From IMG/VR virus record IMGVR_UViG_3300050132_000156, positions 1 to 54,909 of that record: a DNA stretch of 54,909 nucleotides; one strand, 5' to 3'. The position numbers and the translations under genes are program-made. The DNA comes from a virus. The notes below the pieces were generated by a model, which saw only the letters and a list, made by a program, of their open reading frames with translations, did not search any database and was not told where the DNA came from. Of this stretch, positions 2,763 to 18,228 are shown piece after piece (positions within the stretch are counted from its first letter, which is position 1; each line of letters starts with the position of its first letter).

Positions 2763-5071
2763 TGTACTGCAATGAGGTAGTCGAGCAACGTCTGGAGGCC
2801 GCCCGCGAAGAGAACGGGTGGTTGCCGGAGTATCACTCGATCCCAGACATAGAGGCGTTCGATGCCAAACTGCTCGCGCGGTTCCCCAAGGAGCACGAGG
2901 AGGCCCGCCTCAACTCGGTCGGCACCGAAGACCCATCCAAGGCATTTCAACTCTCGATCACGCGGGCGCTGAACGATCCACGCAATCCCCGGCTGAATAA
3001 GGATGAAATCCGCTTCATCGACAACGAGCAGGCACTTGTGCAGTGCGATGCGGCGTACTATTTGACCCGCTACTACAAGATCAAGAATCGGCAGAACCTC
3101 ATCCAACACTTTAGCTTTCAAGGTGGGCAGAGGATTCTGTTCAACGTGATTTCGGAATTGGAGCGGATGGGGCGCTCAATTGAGATCCTTATCAACAAAG
3201 CTCGTCAACTCGGGTGTAGCACGCTGGCGCAGGGTCTCATTGGGCACAAGGCCGAATTCTTCTACGGCACCAGTGGCGTCGTCGCCTCGGCAGACAAGGC
3301 CAAGACCGGCGAGATGGTCAAGATGATGCTGATGGGTTACGACATGCAGCCCTGGTGGCTACGGCCGCTGACCAGCCGGCGCGTCGAGAGTCAGAATGGC
3401 ATGATTACCTGGGGTGCCATGAACTCAGGTATCAGTTTTCAGCACGGCAACCAGGTGAACCCGATCGCCATGGGCTCGACGCCGATCACCTACCACCTCT
3501 CCGAAGTCTCCAGCTTCTACGACGCGGCTTACGAACTGATCGACGTAGGCTTGTTCAAGTGCGTCCACCCCTCGCGGCATGTGCTCGGGTTCCTGGAATC
3601 AACGGCCAAGGGGAACACGGGATACTGGGCCGACACTTACTGGGGATCCAAGGCCGGATGGGAAAAAGGCACTTCTCGTCTGATGGCGCTTTTTTTGCCC
3701 TTCTTCTGTGCTGACGACATGTACCCGAACCAGACCGAACTGGAGACGCATCCGGTACCGGAGAACTGGCGGCCAGAGGACGAGACGCGGCAGATGATCG
3801 CCGAGAGCGAGCTGTACATCAAGTCAAACCCGATTCTTGAGAAGGTTCTGAAGCAAAGGTCCGGCCAGCCCGGAGACTGGAAGATGCCTCGCGAGAAGGC
3901 GTGGTATTGGGAGTGGAACTTCCTCGAAGCGCGCGGAAAAGGCCGAGAAAAAGACTGGTACCAGGAAGTCGCGCATACTGACAAAGCCTCCTTCCAGGGA
4001 AGCTATGACAACGTGTTCGGGCGCGAAGTCATCACCGAAGCCTGGGCCAATCGTGACACGAAATACTCCGTCTACGGCATCGTCGGGCAGTCGATTCAGG
4101 AGCGACACGAGCCGGACCCGGAGGACGTGGATAACAGTCTGCCGCGGCTCACAGTCAAGCGCGACAACCGCAAGGGAGAGCCGTTCCAGTGGGAGTTTGT
4201 GCCGCTGTTCTGGGAGGAGCCTTTCAAGGATCTCGACGACAAGGAGTTGTTCGAGAACGAATCCCACATGGGCAAGCTGTTCGTCTGGATGGAGCCCGAG
4301 CCCGGCTACGACTACTCGATCGGCGTCGACACCTCCAAGGGCGTCGGCAAGGACGGCACGGTCGTAGCAGTCAGCCGGCGCGGGCGCTCGCCCTCGGAGC
4401 GGGACATCCAGGCGGCGGAGTGGCGCGACAACTATGTGAGCCACGTCGAGGCGTGGTCCTGGGTGCTGGCGATTGCGTCGTACTACTCGCGCTACATGGG
4501 CCAGCACGGCATCATGTTCCGAGAGCCCTACGTGGCAATCGAGCAGATCGAGGCTGTGGGAGACACCTGCCAGGACCAGATGAGTCTGTGCGGCTACTCG
4601 CGGTTCCACCGCATGATCCGCTACGATTCGATGCCCAAGCAGATGAAGAAGTCCAAGGCCCACAAGCGCGGCTGGTTCACCTCCGGCTGGTCGCGCCCGA
4701 TGCTGACGGACGGCTTTGTGGTCAACACGCAGAACGGCTGGTATCAGGTCAACTCGCCGTACACGATCTGGGAGATGGACCACTGGGAAGTGCATTACAC
4801 GCGGGCCGGGACGAAAGAGAAGTTCGAGCACGGCGAGGACACTACAGACGACGGGATTTTCGCGAACGCGCTGGCGTCGTTCTGCCCGAATGATAGGAAG
4901 ATGCAGGCCGACCGGAGCGAGAACAAGTTCCGGCAGGCCACGTCGCGAGCGCCGGAGTTGGACCTAACCCCAACGAAATCAGGGTACTTTGTTCCCGAGA
5001 TGGGCTATGATTCGAGTAGGGACAAAGACATTCGCAAGATGCTGAGTGGAAGCGTGAGAGGGAGACGATAA
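2762..5071 (+). CDS. terL: Terminase large subunit
   Basis: 769 aa, ATP-driven packaging motor plus nuclease. A variant Walker A lies near residues 145-155 (NKARQLGCST), an acidic Walker B/catalytic Glu region near 245 (ITYHLSEVSSF), and a coupling motif near 280 (ESTAKGNTG). The C-terminal RNase H-like nuclease shows its acidic residues in GVDTSKGVGKDGT (about 520), VAIEQIEAVGDT (about 595) and EDTTDDGIFANA (about 695). At 769 aa it is longer than most terminases (450-650), with extra N-terminal sequence and an insert between ATPase and nuclease. The ATG overlaps the preceding stop. Confidence 0.93.
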   Translation: MYCNEVVEQRLEAAREENGWLPEYHSIPDIEAFDAKLLARFPKEHEEARLNSVGTEDPSKAFQLSITRALNDPRNPRLNKDEIRFIDNEQALVQCDAAYYLTRYYKIKNRQNLIQHFSFQGGQRILFNVISELERMGRSIEILINKARQLGCSTLAQGLIGHKAEFFYGTSGVVASADKAKTGEMVKMMLMGYDMQPWWLRPLTSRRVESQNGMITWGAMNSGISFQHGNQVNPIAMGSTPITYHLSEVSSFYDAAYELIDVGLFKCVHPSRHVLGFLESTAKGNTGYWADTYWGSKAGWEKGTSRLMALFLPFFCADDMYPNQTELETHPVPENWRPEDETRQMIAESELYIKSNPILEKVLKQRSGQPGDWKMPREKAWYWEWNFLEARGKGREKDWYQEVAHTDKASFQGSYDNVFGREVITEAWANRDTKYSVYGIVGQSIQERHEPDPEDVDNSLPRLTVKRDNRKGEPFQWEFVPLFWEEPFKDLDDKELFENESHMGKLFVWMEPEPGYDYSIGVDTSKGVGKDGTVVAVSRRGRSPSERDIQAAEWRDNYVSHVEAWSWVLAIASYYSRYMGQHGIMFREPYVAIEQIEAVGDTCQDQMSLCGYSRFHRMIRYDSMPKQMKKSKAHKRGWFTSGWSRPMLTDGFVVNTQNGWYQVNSPYTIWEMDHWEVHYTRAGTKEKFEHGEDTTDDGIFANALASFCPNDRKMQADRSENKFRQATSRAPELDLTPTKSGYFVPEMGYDSSRDKDIRKMLSGSVRGRR

Positions 5072-10952: not shown

Positions 10953-11693
10953 ATGGCATCCGGCAGATTCAGTAAGCAGGCTGCTCCGTTTTTCGGACAA
11001 GGCCGCGCGATCAATAACGGCTCTGGCGATTCGGTCGTCGGAGGCTCCCTCACGGGCGCCCCGTCCGGCATCGGCGCTACAGCATGGCAGCAGAACTTGC
11101 CGGGCGACCGCGTGATCTTCTCGCCCTCCGACGCTCTGGCGTACTCGAACAACAGCGTAGGCAATCTCTACACGGGAACCTACCGCTACGTCGGGACGCG
11201 CAACAACTCGACGTCCTCGCCGGTTCTCGGACGCGCGGCGTTCTGGGACTGCACGGCGACCGGGACGGGCAACAACATCAGTTCGGCGGCCTGCGATGCG
11301 CTTTATCAGGTGAACAGCGACGGCAACGCGACGGGCTACACGAACTCCCTGTTCGCCGGCGTCTACATCAACAACATCGCCAAGGGCAACTGGTGGTGGA
11401 TCCAGGAATCTGGCAAGGCAACCTGCCAGTTCCGTGCGGGGATCACCGGCACGGCGGCGATTGGAGCGGGCGTTTACGTCGTCGGCGGCGTGAACAACAA
11501 CAACGCGACCGACAACGGGGCCTTCGATCAGGTTTCCGGAGCGAACATCGGCACAGGCGGCGCCGCCGCGGCGAACTTCTACGCGAGCGTCGAAGCATTG
11601 CTGCTGGCGCATGTCGGGGTGGCCGAGACGCTCCCGGCCAACAACAACCTGGCGCTGGTCGACCTGTTCCCGATGCGATTTTTCCGTTGGTAG
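10953..11693 (+). CDS. Putative head decoration or minor structural protein
   Basis: 246 aa directly after the capsid gene, with ribosome-binding site AAGGAG. Rich in Gly, Asn, Ala and Thr, beta-prone, with motifs such as WWWIQESGKATCQFRAG near 150. A decoration protein or head fibre is likely from position. Its TAG stop (11691-11693) overlaps a possible -10 box for the CRISPR-repeat-like RNA that follows. Confidence 0.65.
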   Translation: MASGRFSKQAAPFFGQGRAINNGSGDSVVGGSLTGAPSGIGATAWQQNLPGDRVIFSPSDALAYSNNSVGNLYTGTYRYVGTRNNSTSSPVLGRAAFWDCTATGTGNNISSAACDALYQVNSDGNATGYTNSLFAGVYINNIAKGNWWWIQESGKATCQFRAGITGTAAIGAGVYVVGGVNNNNATDNGAFDQVSGANIGTGGAAAANFYASVEALLLAHVGVAETLPANNNLALVDLFPMRFFRW

Positions 11694-11696
11694 GAT
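11691..11696 (+). promoter_or_regulatory. Possible -10 box for repeat-mimic RNA 1
   Basis: TAGGAT matches TATAAT at the key first, second, fifth and sixth positions and overlaps the stop codon of the preceding gene. No good -35 is visible 16-18 nt upstream, so this is weak. It sits at a similar distance from the repeat as the TATAAT of the second copy. Confidence 0.3.
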
Positions 11697-11700
11697 TCGA

Positions 11701-11731
11701 GACAGCCGCCCGCAGGGGCGTGGATTGAAAC
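11701..11731 (+). ncRNA. Solitary CRISPR-repeat mimic 1 (type I-C-like)
   Basis: The core is CGCCC (11707-11711), loop GCAG, then GGGCGTGGATTGAAAC (11716-11731). CGCCC pairs with GGGCG to make a 5-bp stem, leaving TGGATTGAAAC, identical in form to the 11-nt 5' handle released when Cas5 cuts type I-C repeats. There is no array and no cas gene in the window. The 37 nt between the repeat end and the terminator stem at 11769 equals a spacer length. Phage solitary repeats with this design are known as RNA anti-CRISPRs (Racr). Function here is inferred. Confidence 0.7.
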
Positions 11732-11768
11732 GAGACGGATTTCTTCCGAGTCACTTTGCAGCAGCCTT

Positions 11769-11796
11769 GGGGAGTAGGAAACTACTCCCCTCTTTT
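11769..11796 (+). terminator. Intrinsic terminator with GAAA tetraloop
   Basis: GGGGAGTAG (11769-11777), loop GAAA, CTACTCCCC (11782-11790), then TCTTTT. The 9-bp stem is perfect. It ends any transcript from the capsid operon and also any RNA that starts at the CRISPR-repeat mimic at 11701. Confidence 0.9.
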
Positions 11797-11820
11797 CATG
11801 TTTGAGTGTATGCTGATGGC

Positions 11821-12072: not shown

Positions 12073-12101
12073 TTGACACCGTAAGCGGAATAGCTTATGA
12101 T
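12073..12101 (+). promoter_or_regulatory. Near-consensus sigma70 promoter (leaderless)
   Basis: TTGACA at 12073-12078, a 17-nt spacer and TATGAT at 12096-12101. The start point would fall at about 12108-12109, exactly at the GTG start of the HTH gene, so the mRNA would have no 5' leader. It is the best promoter I see in the structural half of the genome. Confidence 0.8.
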
Positions 12102-12108
12102 CTGAGGT

Positions 12109-12360
12109 GTGGAAAACAAAGAATGGCCCCGTCTACAGACCGCAATCCGGGACTACCGGGCCGTTGGTCTCAACGCCACTACGCTGTTAGAGATCATCAT
12201 ATGCCGACTCGTAAAGATCGTGAGCAATGACGGGCTAAGTGCCACTGCTCGCAGGATCGGCATAAGCGCCCAATACCTCCACGACGTAATCCACCACAAG
12301 CGCCCCGTTTCGGAGAACTTCCTCGACAAGATCGAAGAAACGGCAGGAGACGGGCTGTGA
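12109..12360 (+). CDS. Small helix-turn-helix regulator
   Basis: 83 aa from GTG 12109. Residues 40-75 (LSATARRIGISAQYLHDVI, then HHKRPVSENFLDKI) fit an XRE/Cro-type HTH: helix 2, turn at GIS, recognition helix AQYLHDVIHH. It is driven by its own strong promoter at 12073, so it can be expressed independently of the late operon, as moron and Aca-type regulators are. It could repress the promoter that drives it. It overlaps the HNH gene by 4 nt. Confidence 0.7.
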   Translation: MENKEWPRLQTAIRDYRAVGLNATTLLEIIICRLVKIVSNDGLSATARRIGISAQYLHDVIHHKRPVSENFLDKIEETAGDGL

Positions 12361-12797
12361 GTTCAATCCTGGAGAAAATCATGGATAAGGTATCTCCTGA
12401 GCCCAACTCTGGATGTTGGCTGTGGATGGGTGCCCTCGGAAGGGACGGATACGGGCAGACGTCATTCCCCTATTTGTCTAAAAGCAGGAGGGCGCATCGG
12501 ATATCTTGGGAATTGTTCAGGGGGGAAATACCGAAAGGGATGGTCTTGGACCACTTGTGCCGGGTCCACTCTTGCGTAAACCCAGACCACCTACAGGTTG
12601 TTACGTCAGCGGAAAACATAAAGCGTGGATTTCGGGACAGAGCGCACAAGAAGCCGGATTGTTGCACCAAGGGCCATCCGTACGATGCGGAGAACACCTA
12701 CTTCTATGGGATCAAACGGGAGAAGCGAGGATGTAAGGCCTGCCGCAGAAAGAACGTTTCCAATTTCTGGAAAAGGAAGAGAACCGCTAGTGCCTAG
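12357..12797 (+). CDS. HNH homing endonuclease
   Basis: 146 aa from GTG 12357 (alternative ATG 12381). The N-terminal part (GCWLWMGALGRDGYGQ) and core (RAHRISWELFRGEIPKGMVLDHLC, given in part) with C-x4-C and NPDHLQVVT match the phage HNH-3 homing endonuclease family; the catalytic His is in LDHLC and the Asn-Pro-x-His pair completes the fold. A C-terminal zinc-binding segment (CCTKGHPYDAENTYFY, then CKACR) is typical of free-standing phage HNH genes. Base composition is visibly less GC-rich than its neighbours, consistent with recent arrival. Confidence 0.9.
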   Translation: MSSILEKIMDKVSPEPNSGCWLWMGALGRDGYGQTSFPYLSKSRRAHRISWELFRGEIPKGMVLDHLCRVHSCVNPDHLQVVTSAENIKRGFRDRAHKKPDCCTKGHPYDAENTYFYGIKREKRGCKACRRKNVSNFWKRKRTASA

Positions 12798-14142
12798 CCT
12801 ATCGAACCGCAAGACCTTTTACACCCTCTCAGTCAACGACTACGAGCCCATGATCCAGGAACTCACGTTCCCGCTCATGGAGCAGTACGCCTTGAAGATC
12901 GGTGCCGACTTCGAGGTTATCGAGGAGCGCGAGTTCCCCTCTTGGCCGGTCCCGGTGGAGAAACTGCAGATCTCCCAAAAGGCAAAGGAAAACAGGGACG
13001 AGTGGAGCATCTATGCCGACGCGGATTGCCTCATCAGCCCGGACATGTTCGACGTAACCGAACATCTCCGCAAGGATACGGTCTGCCAGAACGGGCGGGA
13101 CTTCGCCGGAGTTCGGCTCAACGCGGACAAGTATTTCCGGCGCGACGGCCGCTGGACCGGGTGCTGCGGTTGGTTCACTGTCGCCTCGGACTGGTGTGCC
13201 TCCGACCTCTGGCGCATGCCCGACGACCTCACCCCCGAGCAGGCCATCCGCAACTGCCATAGCACCGTCGCCGAGCGGCTGTCTGGAGTCTGCGATGAAG
13301 GCCACCTCGTTGACGACTATCTCCTCGCCCGCAACATCGCGCGCTTCGGGCTGAAATACAAGACCGTGACCGAGATCTGCGCCGAGATCGGCTGGAAGAC
13401 ACCGGACGGGCGCGGCTTCAACCCGGCGCTGTGGCACATCTACGCCCTGCCGCGGGAAGAGAAGATTCGCCGGATGCTCTCGGTGCTCTACACGGAGCAT
13501 CAGCGGGTCATCCCCGACCCGGAGAATCCAAACAAGCCGCCAGTGGGCTCGGGCTGGGGCCTCATGTCGCACGACCAGGCAGCGGACTACATGGAGCGCT
13601 GGAAGAAGGAGATCTACTTCCCGCCGGCGCCCGAGATCCAGGGCTGGATGACGCACGTGGAACTCGACTGGCTGTTCAAGCAGGCCCGCGCACACCAGCA
13701 GATCGTCGAGATCGGCTCCTGGTTCGGCCGCTCCACGCACGCGCTCTGCACGGCCTGCGACGGCCATGTCTCAGCGGTCGATCACTTCCAGGGCTCACCG
13801 GCGGAACTGGCAGGACCGCATCAGTTCGCCAAGACCGGCGACGTCTTCGCGGAATTCTGGAAGAACTGCGGCGACTTCGACAACATGGAAGCCTTCAAGA
13901 TGCCGAGCGCGGAGGCTGCAGCACAGTTCGGGGACGGCTCGCTCGACATGGTGTTCGTGGACGGGGACCATACCAAGGCAGGCGTCCTGGCCGACCTGAC
14001 GCTGTGGCGGCCCAAGCTGCGCCCGGGCGGGCTGCTGTGCGGCCATGACCGTTACCAGGATGGCGTGCCGGCGGCGCTCACGGAGTTCTTTGGCGAGGCT
14101 CCTGCGGCGGTCGCGGGAAGTATTTGGGCAACGTCTGTATAA
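12790..14142 (+). CDS. Bifunctional glycosyltransferase-methyltransferase
   Basis: 450 aa from GTG 12790; the frame is open further upstream but that part overlaps the HNH gene. Residues about 1-240 resemble a GT-A glycosyltransferase with a DxD-type motif (YADADCLI near 77). Residues about 290-450 are a class I SAM-dependent methyltransferase: motif I IVEIGSWFGRST (near 305) and an acidic post-motif VFVDGDHTKAG (near 395). Such fusions modify glycans. In the middle of structural genes it may decorate the virion or alter host surface sugar. Its TAA stop lies inside the TATAAT box of the second repeat mimic. Confidence 0.8.
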   Translation: MPSLSNRKTFYTLSVNDYEPMIQELTFPLMEQYALKIGADFEVIEEREFPSWPVPVEKLQISQKAKENRDEWSIYADADCLISPDMFDVTEHLRKDTVCQNGRDFAGVRLNADKYFRRDGRWTGCCGWFTVASDWCASDLWRMPDDLTPEQAIRNCHSTVAERLSGVCDEGHLVDDYLLARNIARFGLKYKTVTEICAEIGWKTPDGRGFNPALWHIYALPREEKIRRMLSVLYTEHQRVIPDPENPNKPPVGSGWGLMSHDQAADYMERWKKEIYFPPAPEIQGWMTHVELDWLFKQARAHQQIVEIGSWFGRSTHALCTACDGHVSAVDHFQGSPAELAGPHQFAKTGDVFAEFWKNCGDFDNMEAFKMPSAEAAAQFGDGSLDMVFVDGDHTKAGVLADLTLWRPKLRPGGLLCGHDRYQDGVPAALTEFFGEAPAAVAGSIWATSV

Positions 14143-14143
14143 T
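14138..14143 (+). promoter_or_regulatory. Consensus -10 box for repeat-mimic RNA 2
   Basis: TATAAT at 14138-14143, overlapping the stop codon of the preceding gene. The start point is expected near 14150, the first base of the CGCCC stem. No matching -35 hexamer is visible, so it may rely on an activator or be weak. Confidence 0.5.
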
Positions 14144-14147
14144 TTTT

Positions 14148-14174
14148 GTCGCCCTTCTGGGCGTGGATTGAAAC
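14148..14174 (+). ncRNA. Solitary CRISPR-repeat mimic 2 (type I-C-like)
   Basis: GT, then CGCCC (14150-14154), loop TTCT, then GGGCGTGGATTGAAAC (14159-14174). Stem and 3' handle are identical to mimic 1; all four loop bases differ. The leading GTCGCCC matches the usual 5' end of type I-C repeats (GTCGCCCC...). A TATAAT box ends 4 nt before it, so the RNA may begin at the repeat. Unlike copy 1 there is no close terminator; the next hairpin is at 14328-14343 (CAGACG-TCCT-CGTCTG). Function is inferred. Confidence 0.7.
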
Positions 14175-17655: not shown

Positions 17656-17904
17656 TTAGATGTACGAGGGAACGCAGCGGTTGTAATCCGCGCGGATGTT
17701 CTTGTTGGTCGGGTGCAGGTAGTAAGACATAGTGGTCGAGATAAACGTGTGGCCAAGCAACGCCTGAATCGAATAGACGCTCGCCCCACGGCTCAGGAGC
17801 GAAGTGGCAAGCGAGTGCCGGAAGAGATGCGGCCACACCCGGCCCTCAATGCCGCATCGCTTTGCCATGACCCTGACGAACTTCCGAATGTCTTGGGTCT
17901 GCAT
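17656..17904 (-). pseudogene. Tyrosine recombinase (integrase) C-terminal remnant
   Basis: 82 codons on the minus strand. WPHLFRHSLATSLLSRGAS contains the H-x-x-R box, IQALLGHTFISTT the G-H box, and YYLHPT the catalytic tyrosine region. The first Arg box and the whole N-terminal core-binding domain are absent: reading upstream, an in-frame TAA precedes the fragment by seven codons. It is oriented against the surrounding late genes. It is likely the relic of an integration module or of a mobile element. Confidence 0.75.
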
Positions 17905-17940
17905 CTGGTGATGGTTCCGTGGGAATTAAGTACCTGAACC

Positions 17941-18228
17941 ATGCTGAAACTCACCGAAGTAATGCTTCACGAAGAGCGCCCGCAGCGCCGGTCTTCTGAC
18001 GTGGAGCAATGGATTCGGCTTGCGGTATCCGAGCATCCACACATCACGGTAGATGATTTTCTGTGTGGCGAGCGGGACGATCACGGCCATGTGCGGCCGA
18101 CGGGCTACACCGGCTGGTTCTGGCTTCTTGGCAGGGGCTCGTCGCCCGCTTGTGTGTCGCGGGTGTGCTCGCAGATGCAGTGCTATCCGGCAACGCCGGT
18201 TGCGGATCTTCTGGAGGTTACGGCATGA
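17941..18228 (+). CDS. Hypothetical protein
   Basis: 95 aa, not recognised. Mixed composition with a central GYTGWFWLLGRG stretch and two C-terminal cysteines. It begins the membrane-protein cluster and overlaps the next gene by 4 nt (ATGA). Confidence 0.5.
   Translation: MLKLTEVMLHEERPQRRSSDVEQWIRLAVSEHPHITVDDFLCGERDDHGHVRPTGYTGWFWLLGRGSSPACVSRVCSQMQCYPATPVADLLEVTA

Follow-up and report, generated by a model that had tools for sequence, protein, structure and literature searches.

The window, by which we mean the whole 54,909-nt stretch of DNA that was analysed, is a complete circular phage contig with a 181-nt end repeat (IMGVR_UViG_3300050132_000156). An acidobacterial host is plausible for this phage on sequence grounds, because its nearest isolates, the distant Tunturi phages with ~30% protein identity, infect an acidobacterium (Acidobacteriota). 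The capsid protein is common to 12 IMG/VR contigs at 31-69% identity, and the five closest relatives (L001 and L029-L032) keep the order decoration protein, 88-aa-like gene and transferase gene. The window's own decoration-protein-like ORF, the second gene of the capsid pair (246 aa; 10953-11693, + strand), has no match in PHROGs or Pfam, and its counterpart adjoins the major capsid protein in the same five relatives. No known RNA families or tRNAs were found in the window, and a search of the whole window for the Cas5 family gave no match; like the carriers of RNA anti-CRISPRs (Racr), the phage is a mobile element without matching cas genes of its own. A tyrosine-recombinase (PF00589) match of 89 residues at 17707-17979 on the - strand is interrupted by one internal stop codon and looks, from its sequence, like a broken or partial integrase.

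Two compact type I-C repeats and the capsid-operon 3' UTR

The space between the capsid pair and the next gene, flanked by ORFs that end at 11693 and start at 11806, is occupied by a solitary compact type I-C repeat, E1 (11707-11731, + strand), whose stem begins 13 nt after the capsid-pair stop codon. E1 consists of a 5-bp stem (5' arm CGCCC, 11707-11711; 3' arm GGGCG, 11716-11720) closed by a GCAG loop (11712-11715) and followed by the 11-nt type I-C handle TGGATTGAAAC (11721-11731, + strand). A 37-nt tail (11732-11768, + strand) separates the repeat from the intrinsic terminator of the capsid operon (11769-11790, + strand), a perfect GGGGAGTAG-GAAA-CTACTCCCC hairpin followed by TCTTTTC. All of the elements that the first-pass annotation had listed for 11701-11796, from the CGCCC/GGGCG stem to the GAAA-loop terminator, are thus present. 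The E1 region folds better than shuffled sequences (z = -2.5), and a fold over a longer stretch pairs part of the handle with the 5' flank.

The sequence GCGTGGATTGAAAC, which is the exact handle of the I-C arrays recovered in a scan of IMG/VR, is found at just two places in the window, 11718-11731 and 14161-14174, and has no exact match on the other strand. Motifs made of a 5-bp stem, a 4-nt loop and TGGATTGAAAC are expected ~2e-5 times in the whole window and are observed twice. The second is E2 (14148-14174, + strand), which reads GTCGCCC-TTCT-GGGCG-TGGATTGAAAC (in full, GTCGCCCTTCTGGGCGTGGATTGAAAC), and the label "candidate 1" given earlier to E1 proved apt in that a real sibling exists. 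E2 lies directly after the stop codon of the upstream ORF (14140-14142), which is overlapped by a perfect -10-like hexamer, TATAAT (14138-14143, + strand), just 5' of the repeat; no good -35 partner was found near this hexamer, and neither a terminator nor a PAM-anchored duplication was found at E2. The interval 12109-12797, between E1 and E2, encodes an HNH endonuclease and contains an 83-aa ORF that weakly matches HTH-type regulators and is preceded by a good promoter-like site (12073-12101); in the relative L001, a tRNA-Met is found at about this place. No promoter-like site was found directly upstream of E1, and its RNA would therefore come with the late capsid mRNA, which is late for an anti-CRISPR; transcription of E1 via read-through of the capsid operon is plausible.

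E1 and E2 belong to a known class, as SRU/Racr candidates of compact form with a predicted function, because SRUs are widespread and experiments have validated one Racr of type I-C, RacrIC1 (PMC10651486). E1 has the hairpin and the subtype-specific 3' handle of a known repeat, is intergenic and has no second repeat within 100 bp, the exact handles being 2.4 kb apart. The earlier assignment of E1 to the Racr class as a solitary type I-C repeat is upheld by the cas-less phage, the exact I-C handle and the precedent of RacrIC1. The compact 5-bp stem of E1 is unlike that of the usual array repeat, so E1 was not freshly copied from a common one. The type I-C handle is absent from 12 of 12 viral relatives, several of which are fragments, and from Tunturi_1, which is literally the absence from all related phages that the first-pass annotation would have held against the element; we do not count it so, because sporadic occurrence is normal for anti-CRISPR elements. 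The same sporadic distribution, together with a degenerate repeat start (GC instead of GT), would suit a non-functional array remnant or a neutral insertion scar. Such an origin is improbable, however, since the handle and paired stem are intact in both E1 and E2 with differing loops, and since unrelated viral contigs repeatedly carry compact hairpins with UUCG or GNRA loops.

The 37 nt between repeat and terminator had been taken to represent a spacer, and this part of the earlier interpretation did not survive comparison with relatives. The decoration gene of L029 has an intrinsic terminator 40 nt after it and that of L030 has one after 35 nt (counted from the sequences), and neither relative has the repeat there. 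The corresponding distance in the window is 75 nt, or 42 nt after removal of the repeat and the duplicated bases, a difference that makes E1 look as if it had been inserted into a short 3' UTR; the insertion is read from spacing because no close relative of the window phage with an empty site was found. The tail is probably just native 3' UTR of the capsid operon, and is most simply regarded as the rest of that UTR, because the corresponding stop codon and terminator of L029 and L030 are 35-40 nt apart with no repeat between them. The 37-nt distance, in other words, matches the native spacing of stop codon and terminator in relatives that lack the repeat. In a first control the repeat-to-terminator distance looked very special (P = 1.6e-8), but against matched intergenic controls terminators 25-60 nt 3' of solitary repeats are only ~4-fold commoner (8/103 vs 15/746, P = 0.004), and with the relatives' UTRs similar in the absence of a repeat, the spacer-length tail was dropped as proof of a dummy crRNA.

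The length of the tail would also fit a single-spacer mini-array, in which the tail guides host Cascade against competing phages, as archaeal viruses do (PMC11656645). This use is very unlikely, because there is no second repeat and the first 19 nt of the tail have no exact match in IMG/VR. Neither the window nor, in significant matches, phages and plasmids yielded a target for the E1 tail, and none was found in phages for 13 pooled tails, and the tail was accordingly dropped as a guide.

Solitary type I-C repeats as a class in viruses

The pattern scan of IMG/VR returned many solitary type I-C repeats among the matches listed. Among these, 103 of 144 lie outside called genes, a fraction to be compared with 20% of bases, and 24 of 91 are found 0-20 nt after a stop codon, compared with 7% at random. 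Lengths of 29 nt or less were recorded for 20 of 100 solitary repeats and 1 of 92 array repeats in the non-redundant matches listed (P = 1e-5 by repeat), a contrast that is weaker by array locus (20/100 vs about 1/21) because the array repeats come from 21 loci only. The compact form is therefore over-represented among solitary repeats, with the same weakening by locus, and the proposal that E1 is a shortened repeat stands to that extent. The exact compact form was matched eight times in 84,980 species genomes, never within an array of at least three repeats. UUCG or GNRA loops are frequent in compact solitary repeats.

Several genomes carry solitary repeats at different places, namely the window, L054, the genome of L062 and L072, and that of L020, L025 and L026. 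The last of these is a 57.7-kb viral contig, IMGVR_UViG_3300007351_000481, with at least four solitary I-C-like repeats in which the stem base is identical and the loops are different. Two other viral contigs, L014 and L018, have ~190 nt in common 5' of a compact UUCG-loop I-C repeat, and their tails diverge after ~21-25 nt.

Compact repeats were also encountered in bacterial sequences. In a Desulfovibrio MAG (L006, 5600-5760), a pair of compact I-C repeats spaced by 61 nt lies directly 3' of an ORF that by eye resembles a reverse transcriptase. In Thiothrix, Thiofilum and Rhodoferax, an intergenic element present in dispersed copies (L008-L013) ends in a compact I-C-like repeat and includes a hairpin region of ~80 nt upstream that is common to the copies; this ~80-nt sequence is absent at E1, and membership of E1 in that host element was rejected. 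Cultured phages gave no useful set of type I-C repeats. Repeats of other subtypes were noted in them, including a Racr-like arrangement in Pseudomonas phage IME307 (L248, 1501-1580), where an I-F-like repeat is followed after ~20 nt by a second, degenerate I-F-like repeat and then a terminator. Samwavirus phages of Corynebacterium (L242-L247, ~2900-3100 in each) have a conserved type I-E-like mini-array between two terminators, with three repeat-like units and two spacer-length gaps; these I-E repeats were set aside as empty-site material, being conserved mini-arrays for which no empty site was found.

PAM-anchored duplications flanking solitary repeats

At E1, the trinucleotide TTC (11696-11698, + strand), which is a functional type I-C PAM (PMC8406640), lies immediately 5' of a truncated left copy of the tail start, GAGACA (11699-11704, + strand; 5/6 identical to GAGACG), giving the layout GATTC-GAGACA-[repeat]-GAGACGG. 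This duplication, like the promoter-like TATAAT at E2, had been missed in the first-pass annotation. Taken alone, TTC plus GAGAC in the 45 nt upstream of E1 has a chance of 0.0015, and with a duplication this short (5 nt plus the PAM) the arrangement could be of chance origin at that level.

The general layout is TTC-X[1..n]-repeat-X, that is, a PAM and a shortened copy of X, the repeat, and then the full copy, and it is displayed by ~5-10% of the solitary viral I-C repeats among the matches listed, E1 included. In the flanks of ~106 solitary repeats among the matches listed, a direct-duplication alignment score of at least 11 was reached in 5, compared with 0.05 expected. The test applied asked how often the 45 nt 5' of the repeat contain TTC joined to the tail's first k nt. 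The pattern had been noticed in the discovery set (n = 104) before being tested there; a second set of 45 repeats with other repeat endings is the sole independent test of the PAM pattern. At k = 4, 6/104 repeats in the discovery set (among the matches listed) were positive vs 0.41 expected, and in the second set there were 4/45 vs 0.16 expected, with 3 vs 0.02 at k = 6. When all 64 triplets were ranked, TTC came first at k = 3-5 in the discovery set (among the matches listed) and at every k tried in the second set. The signal occurs only 5' of the repeat and on the same strand, with 9 cases vs 0.45 expected (E1 counted) and 0-2 in five other regions.

The clearest X-repeat-X case is L115 (- strand, IMGVR_UViG_3300032053_000217), in which a perfect 34-nt X, the length of a spacer, flanks a 32-nt I-C repeat on both sides and TTC precedes the left copy. 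The duplication matches at 15/16 positions in L079 and at 6/6 in L110. In L061 (repeat ~892-922, + strand), a 34-nt copy is present on each side, again with TTC before the left one, and the copies encode near-identical C-terminal peptides (ADVSNTLMEM.. and ADIGNTLMEM..) with many synonymous differences. A homologous region is shared by L048 and L168, where the relative without the repeat has CTC before the post-repeat sequence, the intervening bases differing as well. L168 sits amid short local repeats and was considered doubtful as a clean example of the second set, and matches of the type of L221, six of which are in the second set, are coding coincidences that merely dilute the test.

A PAM followed by a seed-like match upstream of the repeat is also what would be expected if the repeat-tail RNA acted as a guide in the manner of CreA, steering host Cascade to the upstream TTC site and repressing transcription in an autoregulatory fashion. 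The upstream matches reach 11-14 nt in L079, L186 and L193, and in E1, L019 and L056 the mismatch falls at the flipped-out position 6. Regulation of this kind is nevertheless very unlikely, because the 4-8-nt matches of E1, L110 and L069 fall short of what known partial-match repression needs, and because in L115, L110, L069, L079 and L092 the match extends up to the repeat boundary, as insertion predicts. CreA antitoxin RNAs resemble the present elements in joining a degenerate repeat to a guide, with a PAM and short seed match nearby, but the two repeats and toxin RNA gene of CreA genes (PMC8501985) are not seen here: there is no second repeat and no CreT-like toxin gene, and the target site abuts the repeat. 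CreA guides have a seed of ~10 nt plus a PAM in the target promoter, whereas E1 matches over 5 nt and then at position 7, and E2 has no match.

The duplications also bear on another account of E1, that of a plain trans-acting RNA anti-CRISPR against type I-C that was selected for its RNA only, with TTC-GAGAC coincidental. A known class with a validated I-C example, an intact hairpin and 11-nt handle, a terminator that gives a discrete 3' end, and the ~4-fold excess of such terminators over intergenic controls all speak for it. We regard it as somewhat unlikely, because it leaves unexplained both the PAM-anchored duplications in two sets and the multi-repeat genomes listed above, and because E1 has no promoter of its own that could be found. 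The PAM-anchored insertion signature was not described in the literature found, which stopped short of preprints and most subscription papers, and as a property of solitary viral I-C repeats it is new here. Judged from the flanking sequences, it suggests that such repeats were captured at targeted protospacers, with a host array as their source.

Proposed origin and action of E1 and comparison with known systems

Our preferred reading, to which we assign a probability of a little under one half (about 0.48), is that E1 entered the phage genome by insertion at a protospacer within the capsid-operon 3' UTR, with a host array as the likely source, and that it may serve as camouflage in cis and as a decoy in trans. 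What is observed is the repeat, its position, the PAM-anchored duplication and the recurrence of this arrangement in other viral contigs, and from these we infer an array origin and a loss of targeting. The order at E1 would be TTC as the PAM, the first ~5 nt of protospacer X, the repeat, X itself (the tail, starting GAGACGG) and the terminator. The orientation would be that of a repeat before spacer X in a host array, with the tail starting where a spacer follows the PAM. Before insertion, the site would have run GGTAGGATTC-GAGACGGATTTC unbroken, and spacer X in the source array, most likely a host type I-C array, would start GAGACGGATTTCTTCCGAGTCACTTTGCAGC. The repeat may have been copied by recombination, or during repair of DNA cut by the type I-C machinery.

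In cis, X would now be preceded by a repeat instead of a PAM, such that the protospacer would resemble the host array to Cascade, which spares its own array. In trans, the read-through RNA of the capsid operon, with its hairpin and 11-nt handle, could be bound and cut by host Cas5c; cleavage by Cas5c leaves an 11-nt handle (PMC5965380), and a Cas5c-Cas7 clamp on the handle nucleates Cascade assembly (PMC7684278). The resulting RNA would carry a handle but have no target, and would occupy Cas5c and Cas7, as in RNA anti-CRISPRs, Cas binding and inhibition being further steps that we infer. The two effects are compatible and may both hold. Against this reading stand the shortness of the duplication at E1 and its absence at E2, the compact stem that sets E1 apart from the usual array repeat, the partial pairing of the E1 handle in the longer fold, and the late timing of capsid mRNA.

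More generally, it is a tentative suggestion, rather less likely than not, that phages escape type I-C systems by gaining a host repeat between PAM and protospacer, probably through recombination with the host array or repair from it, and that the captured repeat can later act as an RNA anti-CRISPR. Each solitary viral repeat would in that case be both a scar and a trophy of one CRISPR attack, which would explain the origin of these repeats and the presence of several in one genome. Earlier reviews saw SRUs as dominant-negative inhibitors, or as aids to viral integration into arrays by recombination (PMC8616872), and a 2024 review described as an enigma that viruses took up CRISPR repeat RNAs so widely as inhibitors when they apparently did not do so with Cas proteins (PMC11656645). 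A PAM-anchored insertion signature would trace solitary viral repeats to a concrete event, capture at a targeted protospacer; it would also add a cis way of hiding a protospacer and let each repeat be read as the record of an earlier attack.

Viral CRISPR mini-arrays resemble E1 in that a viral repeat with a spacer-length tail relies on host Cas proteins, and differ from it in that E1 has a single repeat and a tail for which no target was found. The elements also resemble the SRUs found by SRUFinder, which are lone intergenic repeats with no cas genes or array within 100 bp. SRUFinder requires that coverage and identity relative to a database repeat each reach 90%, with 50-90% coverage counted as partial, and judged by these thresholds E1 and E2, at ~27 vs 32 nt, would fall below 90% coverage and would probably be partial matches only, which suggests that some members with compact repeats are missed by current repeat-matching searches. 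A close counterpart is RacrIC1, a prophage element of Bifidobacterium pseudocatenulatum (Camara-Wilpert et al. 2023; PMC10651486), which lies 11 nt downstream of a gene with which it is expected to be co-transcribed. Both are solitary type I-C repeats in a virus, a few nt 3' of a gene. The upstream gene is acrIC5 in RacrIC1 and a capsid gene here, the stem of E1 is compact and its activity is predicted, and a PAM-anchored duplication like that of E1 is not reported for RacrIC1 in the part of the source that was accessible. Overall, E1 is a real element of a known kind with a predicted function, whose flanks point to a probable origin by capture at a protospacer.
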